From Trichocoleus desertorum NBK24 (lineage in GTDB: Bacteria; Cyanobacteriota; Cyanobacteriia; FACHB-46), in the NCBI RefSeq assembly GCF_030409055.1, contig NZ_CP116619.1:1149628-1213627 (forward strand): a stretch of 64,000 nucleotides of DNA, given 5' to 3'. Of the stretch, positions 24,817 through 29,757 are shown piece after piece; position 1 is the first letter of the stretch; each line of letters opens with the position of its first letter. The notes beneath the pieces are model-generated. The model saw only the letters and a program-made list of their open reading frames with translations, searched no databases and had not been told where the DNA came from. The position numbers and the translations under genes are program-made.

Positions 24817-25368
24817 ATGTTTTCCTTCCTGAAGTCGCACCCTGAATTTTCTCAGCCCCTTGCACCTCCTACCAACAGACGCGATTTAGTCCGCGCCACT
24901 GCGGCTGAAGTCACACCTCTTAGATTGGGACCCACTCAACTTGATTTTGAAGATCTCATTGAATTTGAACGATTAGAAAATCAGTATTCTAGCTTAGGTA
25001 TCCAGTTTGTCGGCGCGATCGCCATTTGCCCTTCTAATCCAATCTTTTTTCCCAGTTCTGGCCGCTTAGTTTTGATGCCTTCCACGTTCCAACTTGGAAT
25101 TCGGGCACAATTTTGCCGCCCTGTAGCGATCGTGCAAGCCTTAGTTAGTGGCACTCGACCCGTCACTCTCACAGGGCTTGATAGTCAGGGTGTAGTTTTA
25201 GAGCGAGTCAGCATCGGCTCCTACCAATACGTATGGGCTAACGGTCAGGCTGAACTTGCACCCCTCCCCCAACAGCCCCTGGCATTACAAACACCAGGAA
25301 TCGCGAGCGTCATATTTGAGTCTGACGCTCCTTTCACCCTGGATAACTTCTTCTTCAGCCAGTTTTGA
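24817..25368 (+). CDS. Hypothetical beta-rich protein, 183 aa
   Basis: I do not recognise a named family. The protein has no signal peptide; from residue 45 it shows alternating strands with I-E-F-E-R-L, G-I-Q-F-V-G-A, R-L-V-L-M-P, I-V-Q-A-L-V-S-G-T and a close of S-V-I-F-E-S-D-A-P-F-T-L-D-N-F-F-F, a pattern I associate with carbohydrate-binding or PEP-CTERM-linked beta-sandwich proteins of cyanobacteria, here without sorting signals. Its end overlaps the end of the convergent histidine kinase gene by 14 bases (25355-25368), so the two messages can pair at their 3' ends. Confidence 0.6.
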   Translation: MFSFLKSHPEFSQPLAPPTNRRDLVRATAAEVTPLRLGPTQLDFEDLIEFERLENQYSSLGIQFVGAIAICPSNPIFFPSSGRLVLMPSTFQLGIRAQFCRPVAIVQALVSGTRPVTLTGLDSQGVVLERVSIGSYQYVWANGQAELAPLPQQPLALQTPGIASVIFESDAPFTLDNFFFSQF

Positions 25369-27436
25369 GTGGTTGATGATTAGAGTTGGTCGCTTTATTG
25401 CTATTAGACACAGGTAGAACGACTCGAAACTCAGCGCCCGCCCCTGGTTGACTACAGCATTGCAGTTGGCCTTTGTGCCCTTTAACCACAATTTGATAAC
25501 AAATCGATAAGCCTAAACCCGTTCCTTTACCCACTTCCTTGGTGGTGAAGAAAGGATCGAAGATGCGCTCTTGTAACTCTAAAGGAATGCCGGGTCCATC
25601 ATCTCGAATCGAGATCGTGACTTGATCCGCTACATGCCAAGTTCGAATCCTAATATTTGCTTTTTCCCCAGCCGCATCTAGAGCATTGGTCAGCAGGTTA
25701 AGAAAAACTTGATTGATTTGTCCAGCGTGGCATTCTACGAGGGGTAGCTCACCGTAGAGCTTGTCAATCTTGACCCCTGTTTTAACCCGATGCTGCAAGA
25801 TCACCAAGGTACTCTCGATGCCTTCGTGTAAATCAACGACCTTGCGCTCTGCTTCATCTAGCCTGGAAAAATTACGTAGGGTTAAAACAATCTCTCGAAT
25901 CCGCTTGGTGCCTTCTTCCATCGAACTAATCAGTTTAGGAAAGTCCTCGCGCACGTAGTCTAATTCTTGCGCAGCAATCAGCTCAGCGATCGCTTCTGGA
26001 GGATTGGGGCAACAGTCTTCGTAAAGCGCGATCGCCTGATTCAAAGCCGTGGCATACCGTTGAGCATAAGGCAGATTGGCATGGATAAAAGTAATGGCGT
26101 TGTTAATTTCGTGAGCAACCCCCGCCACCATTTGCCCTAAGCTGGATAACTTTTCGCTTTGAAGCAACTGCATTTGTGTCGCTTGCAATTCTTCTAGGGT
26201 GGCTTTGAGAGTTGCAGCTTGAGCTTGGGACTGAGTCGCCGCTGTTTGGACCTGAGCGTACAATTCGGCTTGCTGGATGGCGATCGCCACTTGGTCTGCT
26301 AATTGCTGCAACAATTCAGTTTCCCAAGTCTGCCAAATCCGAGGCGCACCACACTCCTGAGCAATTAACAATCCCCACAACTTAGAGCGAATAATGATAG
26401 GGACAATTAAGTTGGCCTTAACCTGTAAACGCTCCAAAAAGCTGACATGACAAGGATCTAAGCCAGCCTCAAAAATGTTGTGAATCGCTCGAACTCGGCC
26501 ACCTTGATATTGCTGAGCATACTTGGATGAAAAGCAGTTATCTTGGCTCATTTGCCCCAACACCGACATCCAAGGGCTAACAACTTCCTCGACTACAACT
26601 TCACCTTGCCACTCAGTATCCAAAAACCGATAAATGACGACCCGGTCGGTGTCGAGCAAGTGTCGCACTTCCCGCACCACAGTTTGCAAAATGGTCTGAG
26701 AGTCTAAGGTGCTGCGAATTTGGTTGGTGACTAAGCGCAGCAGAGACTCTTGCTCCACCTGACGACGAGTTTCGCCATAAAGACGAGCTTGATTGATCGC
26801 GATCGCCAACTGGCTACCTACACCTTCAAGCAGCTCAATCTCCCAAGGTGTCCATTCTCGCTCAGCATCACATTGGTGCAGCCCAATAACGCCATTGACT
26901 TTACCTTGGTAACGAGTTGCCAAAGCCATCATGGAGCGAATTCCTAAGCCCTGAGCCACTTCCCTGGTTGGCCCATTCAAGCCTGGAAAGTCAAGAAAGC
27001 GAGTCAGTGCCAAAGCCCCCTGCTGAGAGAGCAAGGCTTGTAAGTGAGGATTGCCAACGACAGGCACCTTAAGCCCTAGTTGGGAAGGGTAATCTCCTTG
27101 ATTAAACTCGCCTTTAGTCGTTAAATAATCTTCTTCATCTGGCTCTACCACTAAAATACTGGCTCGGCTACAATTCAGCGCTTGGCCCAGCAAACGGCAA
27201 GCGGAGTTCAAAATTTCTTCTAAATCCAGCGTGCTGCGAATTTCATTACTAATTTGATTAATCAAATTAGAAAGCTTAACTTGCTGTTGAAGTTGAGTGG
27301 TTAAGTTGCGATGGCGCTGTCGTTTGTACAGCTCCAACTCTAATAGCTCCCCTTCTGAAGAATTTAGAGCCTCAGTGTCTACAGAAAACGCTTGGCAGTG
27401 GGGGTGAATAGGAGAGCTATTTACTTCAGAGGACAT
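25355..27436 (-). CDS. GAF-GAF sensor histidine kinase, second GAF likely a DXCF cyanobacteriochrome
   Basis: The order is: GAF1 (about 58-218), GAF2 (about 232-393), a coiled coil (about 395-432), HisKA with phosphoacceptor H442 (V-A-G-V-A-H-E-I-N-N), and HATPase_c with the N box N-L-L-T-N-A-L-D-A, G1 box D-D-G-P-G-I and G2 box G-K-G-T-G-L-G-L-S-I. GAF2 contains D299-N-C301-F302 and, 28 residues on, C329-H330 in L-D-P-C-H-V. This is the two-cysteine arrangement of DXCF cyanobacteriochromes, in which the Cys-His cysteine holds the bilin and the DXCF cysteine attacks C10. The kinase is thus probably light-sensing. No response regulator is adjacent; a GGDEF protein gene diverges 605 bases upstream. 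Confidence 0.85.
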   Translation of the reverse strand: MSSEVNSSPIHPHCQAFSVDTEALNSSEGELLELELYKRQRHRNLTTQLQQQVKLSNLINQISNEIRSTLDLEEILNSACRLLGQALNCSRASILVVEPDEEDYLTTKGEFNQGDYPSQLGLKVPVVGNPHLQALLSQQGALALTRFLDFPGLNGPTREVAQGLGIRSMMALATRYQGKVNGVIGLHQCDAEREWTPWEIELLEGVGSQLAIAINQARLYGETRRQVEQESLLRLVTNQIRSTLDSQTILQTVVREVRHLLDTDRVVIYRFLDTEWQGEVVVEEVVSPWMSVLGQMSQDNCFSSKYAQQYQGGRVRAIHNIFEAGLDPCHVSFLERLQVKANLIVPIIIRSKLWGLLIAQECGAPRIWQTWETELLQQLADQVAIAIQQAELYAQVQTAATQSQAQAATLKATLEELQATQMQLLQSEKLSSLGQMVAGVAHEINNAITFIHANLPYAQRYATALNQAIALYEDCCPNPPEAIAELIAAQELDYVREDFPKLISSMEEGTKRIREIVLTLRNFSRLDEAERKVVDLHEGIESTLVILQHRVKTGVKIDKLYGELPLVECHAGQINQVFLNLLTNALDAAGEKANIRIRTWHVADQVTISIRDDGPGIPLELQERIFDPFFTTKEVGKGTGLGLSICYQIVVKGHKGQLQCCSQPGAGAEFRVVLPVSNSNKATNSNHQPLKTG

Positions 27437-28041: not shown

Positions 28042-29757
28042 ATGCTCCAATCAAGATTCAGGCAGCCTAGCTGGAAATACATCTATCCTCTGGTAGAAAC
28101 AGCAGTTATTAATCTCGACTCAGCAGACTCTCTGCTACGACAAGTGGTGGAAGCGATCGCCACCGAGCATCAAGTCGAGTGCTCACTCTGGACGGGGTTT
28201 GACCCTGGAACTACTGACGGCATTCAAGTGTATGGTACGAGTCGGACTTTATACAATTTGCAGCAGGAGCTTAGTTTAGTTCCAGCGGCTACTAAGGCTT
28301 CGGTAGTCAACTTAAACGCCTCGATTGCACGGGAACCCAAAGTTCAGATTTGCCATTTAGAAAAGTCGCCCCAATGGTTGTTAGAGCAACACCACCTCTC
28401 GCATACAGCTAGAGTATTGGGAGAAAGATTAATTGTGCCTGCCTGGAATGGCGATCGCCTCCGGTTTGTGCTGCAATTACAACGCCACCTACCGCAAGCG
28501 ACGACTCATTTACCTGCCACTTTAGAGACAAAGCGTAAGCCGTTTCTACGCTCTTACCTCAATCCCAAAGCACCTGCTGTTCAGCCCATCACCGCACCCA
28601 CTCCAACTTGGAGCGTAGAAGAAGTTGAAGCCTTAGAAGTTGTTTGTAGCCAAGTGGTCTTAGCCCTACATGCTTTACACTGGCGAGAACGCCTAGAACA
28701 ATCGCGGCAACAAGCGGCTCTGGTCGGTCGCATTGTCCGGTTGCTCAACTCTAGCCTCAACCCCAACGAAATCGTTGAGTGCATCGTGGCAGAACTGGGA
28801 CAAGGACTAAACAGCGATCGCTGTGTACTGGTAGATCTACGGGGCGATCCGGTACATATCCTAGCCAGTTGGGACCATCCCGATCGCTGCCTGCAACCCC
28901 TAGAGAAGCGCCATATTGCCCGTGATGTATGGCAGGACACCGTTGAGATGTTTCTTCAGGGTGCGGCTTCGTATTTAGAATTAGAACTCAGCCAGCCCGA
29001 AGCTGACTCCTTATTAAGTTGGCTACAAGAAATTCAGGCGCTTGCGGCTCTCATTGTGCCTCTATTTGTGCAGGATGAGTTTTTTGGCGCGGTGCTGCTG
29101 TTGTCTTACCAAAAAGAACGAGTTTATGAACTAGATGAACTCCAGACGATTCGGCAGGTAGCAGATCAGGCCGCAGTGGCTTTGACCAATGCTCAGCACT
29201 ATCAAAGTCTTTGGTTCAAGCAAGAAACCCTGCGCTTGCAGAACAATTCCTTACAGCTAGAAGTCATCCATGATGAATTGACACAACTGCTAAATCGGCG
29301 ATCGCTAGAGCGAGAACTGGCCCAACTCAGCGCTCCCGCCCAGTGGAACCTACAGCCGCCCTTCAGCATAATCGTCTGTGATATTGACTACTTCAAGCTC
29401 ATCAACGATTCCTATGGCCACCTGGTTGGGGATGAAGTGCTATACAGTTTGGCCCAACGACTGCAAAAACAGCTGCGGTTTGGCACATCGGCTTATCGCT
29501 ATGGCGGCGAGGAGTTTGTCATTGCCTTGATGGATGTGACGCTAGAGAAAGCGTTTGAGGTTGCAGAACGCTTAAGATTAGCCATCCGCTCAACGGCTTT
29601 TGAAACCACGATTGGCCCTTTGGAAATTACTGCTAGTTTTGGGGTGGCTCAGCAAGATCCAAGTAGTGATCAAGATGCTTGGGATACGGTGCAACGAGCG
29701 GATCAAGCTCTGTACGAAGCGAAACGTCAAGGCCGCGATCGCGCCATCGTGCTTTAG
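28042..29757 (+). CDS. GAF-GGDEF protein, probable diguanylate cyclase
   Basis: The 571-residue protein has a degenerate N-terminal GAF-like region (about 18-215), a clearer GAF domain (about 230-388), a short helix and a C-terminal GGDEF domain (about 405-571). The catalytic loop is G-G-E-E-F (in Y-R-Y-G-G-E-E-F-V-I), with D-I-D-Y-F-K-L-I-N-D-S-Y-G-H upstream for metal and GTP binding, so it should make cyclic di-GMP. The product-inhibition site R-x-x-D is not present before the loop (R-F-G-T instead), so feedback control may be lost. Neither GAF has the bilin cysteine. It diverges from the probable photoreceptor kinase. Confidence 0.88.
   Translation: MLQSRFRQPSWKYIYPLVETAVINLDSADSLLRQVVEAIATEHQVECSLWTGFDPGTTDGIQVYGTSRTLYNLQQELSLVPAATKASVVNLNASIAREPKVQICHLEKSPQWLLEQHHLSHTARVLGERLIVPAWNGDRLRFVLQLQRHLPQATTHLPATLETKRKPFLRSYLNPKAPAVQPITAPTPTWSVEEVEALEVVCSQVVLALHALHWRERLEQSRQQAALVGRIVRLLNSSLNPNEIVECIVAELGQGLNSDRCVLVDLRGDPVHILASWDHPDRCLQPLEKRHIARDVWQDTVEMFLQGAASYLELELSQPEADSLLSWLQEIQALAALIVPLFVQDEFFGAVLLLSYQKERVYELDELQTIRQVADQAAVALTNAQHYQSLWFKQETLRLQNNSLQLEVIHDELTQLLNRRSLERELAQLSAPAQWNLQPPFSIIVCDIDYFKLINDSYGHLVGDEVLYSLAQRLQKQLRFGTSAYRYGGEEFVIALMDVTLEKAFEVAERLRLAIRSTAFETTIGPLEITASFGVAQQDPSSDQDAWDTVQRADQALYEAKRQGRDRAIVL

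Follow-up and report, generated by a model that had tools for sequence, protein, structure and literature searches.

Does the GAF-containing histidine kinase gene within a 64,000-nt stretch of the Trichocoleus desertorum NBK24 chromosome (hereafter the window) encode a light sensor with two chromophore cysteines, as the initial annotation had proposed, and to which kind of cyanobacteriochrome would it belong? The gene (positions 25355..27436, minus strand) encodes a protein of 693 amino acids with the layout GAF1-GAF2-histidine kinase, according to the ORF translation and Pfam. We conclude that it is very probably a cyanobacterial light-sensor kinase that holds a bile pigment by two cysteines. 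It is a known kind of protein, found here in an uncharacterised branch of the DXCF family.

The gene product is a histidine kinase, as shown by a HATPase_c catalytic domain at residues 573-677 (25406..25720, minus strand; Pfam 97.7 bits, cut-off 26.4) and by an H-box with the putative phosphoacceptor H442 in AHEINN (26111..26113, minus strand). Pfam HisKA gave no match at E 0.001, and the NCBIfam family T2SS_HK (NF038348) reached 268.6 bits, below its curated cut-off of 450, over residues 409-676 only. The only Pfam families matched were GAF and HATPase, and thus neither PAS or PHY partner domains nor transmembrane or REC domains were found by Pfam. GAF1 (residues 70-214; 26795..27229, minus strand; Pfam) has no Cys in the canonical or the DXCF position, and a role as a second bilin domain is therefore not supported.

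GAF2 (residues 246-387; 26276..26701, minus strand) is assigned as a DXCF cyanobacteriochrome-type bilin domain by Pfam, phmmer, and its predicted fold. Among solved structures, phmmer ranked 6oap first (E 2.2e-40) and TePixJ (3vv4) second (E 3.9e-33), and the alignment with the latter is free of gaps across both cysteines. The second-cysteine (DXCF) motif D299-N300-C301-F302 (26531..26542, minus strand) aligns with D492-P-C494-F of TePixJ, while the canonical chromophore Cys and the following His, C329-H330 (26447..26452, minus strand), align with C522-H523. Both cysteines, the Asp and Phe of the DXCF motif, and the His that follows C329 are thus aligned with TePixJ, and the alignment does not place the two cysteines outside the bilin pocket. 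The residue numbers in the initial annotation proved to be exact when compared with the translation, which also contains the flanking strings quoted there (Q-G-G-R-V-R-A-I and V-K-A-N-L-I-V-P-I-I). The minus-strand codons are 26542-26540 for D299, 26536-26534 for C301, 26533-26531 for F302, 26452-26450 for C329, and 26449-26447 for H330, so that the annotated range of 26500-26760 covers D299, C301, and F302, but leaves out C329 (26450-26452) and H330. The spacing of 28 residues between C301 and C329, for which the annotation had pointed to TePixJ, is indeed equal to that between C494 and C522 (numbering as in a passage of PMC6955287). The same passage places C494, C522, D492, H523, Q526, and N535 around the pigment and describes Gln526 as the residue that is approached by the photoproduct (PMC6955287). 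The counterparts in GAF2 are C301, C329, D299, H330, F333, and N342, i.e. Gln526 alone differs, being replaced by F333 (26438..26440, minus strand).

An AlphaFold2 model of GAF2, built with 82 sequences, has a mean pLDDT of 88.9 and a pTM of 0.87 and shows the bilin-GAF fold. The top 42 Foldseek rows for this model were cyanobacteriochromes or GAF domains of cyanobacterial phytochromes, together with engineered derivatives. In structural alignments with VIA-align, the nearest solved structure was again 6oap (Z 26.3, rmsd 1.6 over 168), and the values for AnPixJ 3w2z (Z 25.7) and TePixJ 4glq (Z 23.6, rmsd 2.1 over 149) were lower. The predicted fold and the Pfam matches thus indicate a bilin-type GAF with no PAS or PHY partners. 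In the model, C329 lies on helix 328-336 (alpha4) and C301 in the loop preceding helix 304-311; within the GAF2 core, confidence is lowest in the DXCF stretch (residues 296-305, numbered 71-80 in the model), with a mean pLDDT of 69. A full-length model (28 sequences; pLDDT 76.6) contains an unbroken helix, residues 370-475, that leads from GAF2 past H442, which lies late in it. Because of its low pTM (0.38), the full-length model is no guide to how the domains pack.

To estimate conservation, we aligned the window protein with the full-length proteins of 27 loci (28 rows, after manual removal of near-copies and short rows). The identities in this set range from 49 to 96%; the two same-genus orthologues have 96 and 88%, and others 50-67%. 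The matches listed include orthologues from Cyanobacteria bacterium FACHB-471, Leptolyngbyaceae SM1_4_3, Oscillatoria sp. PCC 10802, Microcoleus vaginatus, Tychonema, Laspinema, and Planktothrix. The Microcoleus and Tychonema orthologues (e.g. L050 and L062) carry an insert of about 17 residues, as their GAF2 match is about 190 long versus 175 in the window. D299, C301, F302, C329, H330, L337, N342, and H442 are invariant in 28/28 rows, and residue 300 is variable (N in 15, K in 8, and D in 5). For five columns drawn at random from GAF2, the probability that all are invariant would be about 0.0015. Invariant columns make up 40 of 142 in GAF2 versus 7 of 145 in GAF1, suggesting that GAF2, and not GAF1, is held by selection. 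Chance resemblance of GAF2 to a bilin GAF was rejected on the basis of the E value for TePixJ (3.9e-33) and the invariance of the motif in all 28 sequences.

A broader alignment comprised the GAF of the window and those of 81 of the 117 other loci (82 rows, near-copies and short rows again removed by hand). The Cys at the DXCF position is present in 79 rows, the canonical Cys in 74, and both in 72. The three rows without a Cys at position 301 are L007 and L037, both of the red/green type, and L018. In 13 of the 82 rows the second Cys, the Phe, and the C-H pair are kept and the Asp is absent. Many members of a sister clade of 19 rows (L002, L016, L017, and part of L094-L119) have the motif E/P/K/S/T-x-C-F-P.

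The genome, a single contig of 5.46 Mb, encodes the enzymes expected for the pigment. Its single Fe_bilin_red match is identified as PcyA by NCBIfam NF002760 (367.7 bits versus a cut-off of 206), and it has a single Heme_oxygenase match. With one PcyA and one haem oxygenase gene, the cell can make phycocyanobilin and thus has a supply of the pigment. The genome has 92 GAF matches in all, and many of its GAFs have no chromophore cysteines. Of 30 loci taken from this genome with a profile made from the 82-GAF alignment, some of which are two pieces of one domain, nine, including that of the window, have D-x-C-F together with C-H or C-Y. At least eight DXCF/C[HY] GAFs thus exist beside that of the window, suggesting that DXCF sensing is routine in Trichocoleus desertorum NBK24. 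Three of them (L124, L128, and L129) have Tyr instead of His after the canonical Cys, which may result in a different photocycle.

Taken together, the motif alignment with TePixJ, the predicted bilin-GAF fold, and the genes for PcyA and haem oxygenase support the proposal that this is a DXCF cyanobacteriochrome. C301 is a second Cys at the position of TePixJ C494, and C329 is a canonical Cys on alpha4 at the position of TePixJ C522. Three related types were considered and rejected. The domain does not belong to the red/green (XRG) type, because C301 is present, WXDXXL is absent from GAF2, and V280 and L337 are not Phe. Membership in the teal-DXCF type was rejected because V280 and L337 occupy the sites where Phe is expected at beta2 and alpha4; for this comparison the alpha4 Phe was placed at C+8 through the alignment with NpR6012g4 and AnPixJg2, a presumptive mapping. 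DXCIP membership does not apply, as C329 is present and the motif reads DNCFS. The two Phe positions of red/green sensors are called beta2 Phe and alpha4 Phe in passages of PMC5240096 and PMC5578081, and teal types are likewise described with Phe at both (in part of PMC5240096); they would correspond to positions 280 and 337 of the protein analysed here. V280 (26597..26599, minus strand), at the beta2 position, is Phe in 3/3 red/green references, and L337 (26426..26428, minus strand), at C+8 on alpha4, is Phe in the red/green references as well. TePixJ has the same two residues, and a green photoproduct is therefore favoured over a teal one.

In a maximum-likelihood tree, 87 GAFs fall into two groups separated at 100/100: 65 rows that include GAF2 of the window and 22 rows that include all five reference structures. 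TePixJ, the only characterised DXCF sequence in the tree, lies outside the 65-row lineage, and its long terminal branch makes its position unsure. At C+4 (position 333), F or Y occurs in 62 of the 65 rows of the window lineage, compared to 0 of 22 in the other, so that F333 serves as a marker of the lineage. At C+8 (position 337), 64 of the 65 window-lineage rows have a non-aromatic residue and 19 of the 22 other rows an aromatic one; the beta2 position (280) is Val or Ile in all 65. Some of the relatives came from a contig scan that retained the 80 best loci out of 481 confirmed; one of its two search patterns includes position 337, and the counts at that position are therefore biased for some rows. 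In the 18 window-lineage rows that are free of this bias, which were still picked by similarity to the window protein, C+4 is aromatic in 17/18 and C+8 non-aromatic in 17/18.

The explanation that we regard as likely is a soluble DXCF cyanobacteriochrome histidine kinase, with the domains and cysteines taken from the sequence and the predicted fold, and the photochemistry taken from characterised relatives. In this reading, the helix after GAF2 leads into a dimerisation/phosphoacceptor region with H442, followed by the HATPase_c domain. GAF1, which is much less conserved, would then serve either as another sensor or as a spacer. By analogy with these relatives, C329 would attach phycocyanobilin through ring A, and C301 would add to C10 and shorten the conjugated system, resulting in a blue-absorbing 15Z dark state; the pigment would probably be isomerised to phycoviolobilin. 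Blue light would convert 15Z to 15E and break the C301-C10 bond, yielding a photoproduct of longer wavelength, most likely green. The change would travel along the helix that follows GAF2 and alter the autophosphorylation of H442, and thereby the phosphotransfer to a response regulator. Several observations count against this explanation, i.e. the identity of only about 38% between TePixJ and GAF2, the placement of TePixJ in the other branch of the tree, F333 in place of Gln526, and the pLDDT of 69 in the DXCF stretch.

The same replacement of Gln526 by F333 would fit a dual-cysteine sensor that keeps phycocyanobilin without forming phycoviolobilin and has a yellow to red, not green, photoproduct. 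The photoproducts of DXCF proteins are described as varying with the pigment and its tuning, from teal to orange (PMC6628166). We consider this variant unlikely, as the His after the canonical Cys, shared with TePixJ, is present in 28/28 orthologues, and phycoviolobilin is made by typical DXCF GAFs (according to a section of PMC11284453, a study of another lineage). Alternatively, F333, which precedes the usual position of the alpha4 Phe by one helix turn, might twist ring D in the photoproduct and shift its absorption to the blue, making the protein a blue/teal sensor. The aromatic C+4 and non-aromatic C+8 of the window lineage, including the bias-free rows, agree with this idea, but the beta2 residue is Val or Ile throughout the lineage, whereas published descriptions of the trapped-twist mechanism involve a Phe at beta2 (passages of PMC5240096 and PMC5578081), and we therefore regard it as rather unlikely. 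A degenerate or re-used GAF2 that has ceased to bind pigment in vivo and responds to another signal would be in line with the many GAFs of this genome that are devoid of chromophore cysteines, and pigment binding is indeed a prediction here. Such a loss of function is highly improbable, however, given that both cysteines are invariant in 28/28 orthologues with 49-96% identity and that GAF2 is far more constrained than GAF1.

Seven GAFs of the broad set (L020, L021, L023, L075, L115, L117, and L120) have kept the DXCF Cys and carry D, S, E, or A at the position of the canonical Cys. Five of the seven group together (100/98), and on the tree the absence of the canonical Cys requires two changes. 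In four of these five, a Cys is found at position 306, five residues past the DXCF Cys. According to a 2019 paper (PMC6628166), all groups except DXCIP carry the canonical Cys. These relatives would offer a test of whether, in sensors other than DXCIP, pigment can be held by the DXCF Cys without a canonical one. A more far-reaching, and at present doubtful, proposal is that the window lineage has a colour-tuning pocket of its own, with the alpha4 aromatic residue one helix turn nearer to the chromophore Cys (C+4, not C+8), Val or Ile at beta2, and a ring D wall unlike those of TePixJ, teal-DXCF, and red/green sensors, and that the best tree implies two or more losses of the canonical Cys within it, with the DXCF Cys alone holding the resulting sensors. 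Our limited literature search did not reveal the idea of an aromatic residue at C+4 of alpha4 in print, and an earlier description in papers on DXCF lineages is possible. If the C+4 aromatic residue does tune colour, a single point mutation in a small GAF would test the choice of the photoproduct colour.

No response regulator was identified adjoining the kinase gene, which is therefore treated as an orphan. A GAF-GGDEF gene (28042-29757, plus strand), the GAF of which matches Pfam at 45.5 bits, is divergent to the kinase gene. The order of kinase gene, divergent GAF-GGDEF gene, and then a phosphoglucomutase-like gene is found in the window, in two same-genus genomes (L151 and L152), and in the Leptolyngbya-like loci L041 and L045. 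In G020 (L153) the kinase gene stays beside pgm without a GGDEF match, and the GAF-GGDEF neighbour is absent at the other 29 loci compared, save for a partial GGDEF match of 31% in L077. In 4/4 Oscillatoriales loci tested, a type III pantothenate kinase gene takes the divergent position. A c-di-GMP link between the GAF-GGDEF gene and the light kinase is possible; with a gene order kept in few relatives, we do not claim a functional link. The other neighbour (24817-25368, plus strand) is convergent with the kinase gene, with gene ends overlapping by 14 bases, and encodes a 183-aa protein without a Pfam or NCBIfam match. Homologues of it adjoin the kinase gene in L151, L152, and, at 32%, L153. 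Promoter and terminator scans gave results at chance level, and Rfam found nothing over the window.

The kinase was compared with several known systems. The closest solved protein, by sequence (whole protein E 1.1e-41) as well as by fold, is the dual sensor histidine kinase of 6oap/6oaq/6ob8, which we take to be PPHK. It is likewise a kinase in which another domain precedes the bilin GAF, but Tyr occupies the site of the second Cys (D-Q-Y-F), C+8 is Phe, C+4 is Leu, and its first domain had no match to GAF1 in the sequence search, the best stretch starting at residue 213. The red/green sensors NpR6012g4, AnPixJg2, and Slr1393g3 share the bilin GAF with a canonical Cys-His, but lack the second Cys (D-T-H/Y-L), have Phe at beta2 and C+8 as well as WXDXXL, and form a separate branch. 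DXCIP cyanobacteriochromes have a Cys at the DXCF position, as here, but are described as having no canonical Cys (in a passage of PMC5578081), in contrast to C329. DXCF kinases are already known: UirS is described as a DXCF cyanobacteriochrome upstream of the response regulator UirR (in a passage of PMC5578081). The DXCF blue/green GAF of TePixJ (3vv4, 4glq, 6p58) agrees with GAF2 in the positions of D-x-C-F and C-H, the spacing of 28, the fold, Val at beta2, and Leu at C+8, and differs in its place in the tree, about 38% identity, and a Gln at C+4; in addition, TePixJ is annotated as a methyl-accepting chemotaxis protein, whereas the protein described here is a kinase. The kinase of T. desertorum NBK24 thus adds a conserved DXCF kinase, present in Leptolyngbyaceae, Oscillatoria, Microcoleus, Tychonema, Planktothrix, and Laspinema, from a branch without any of the five reference structures.
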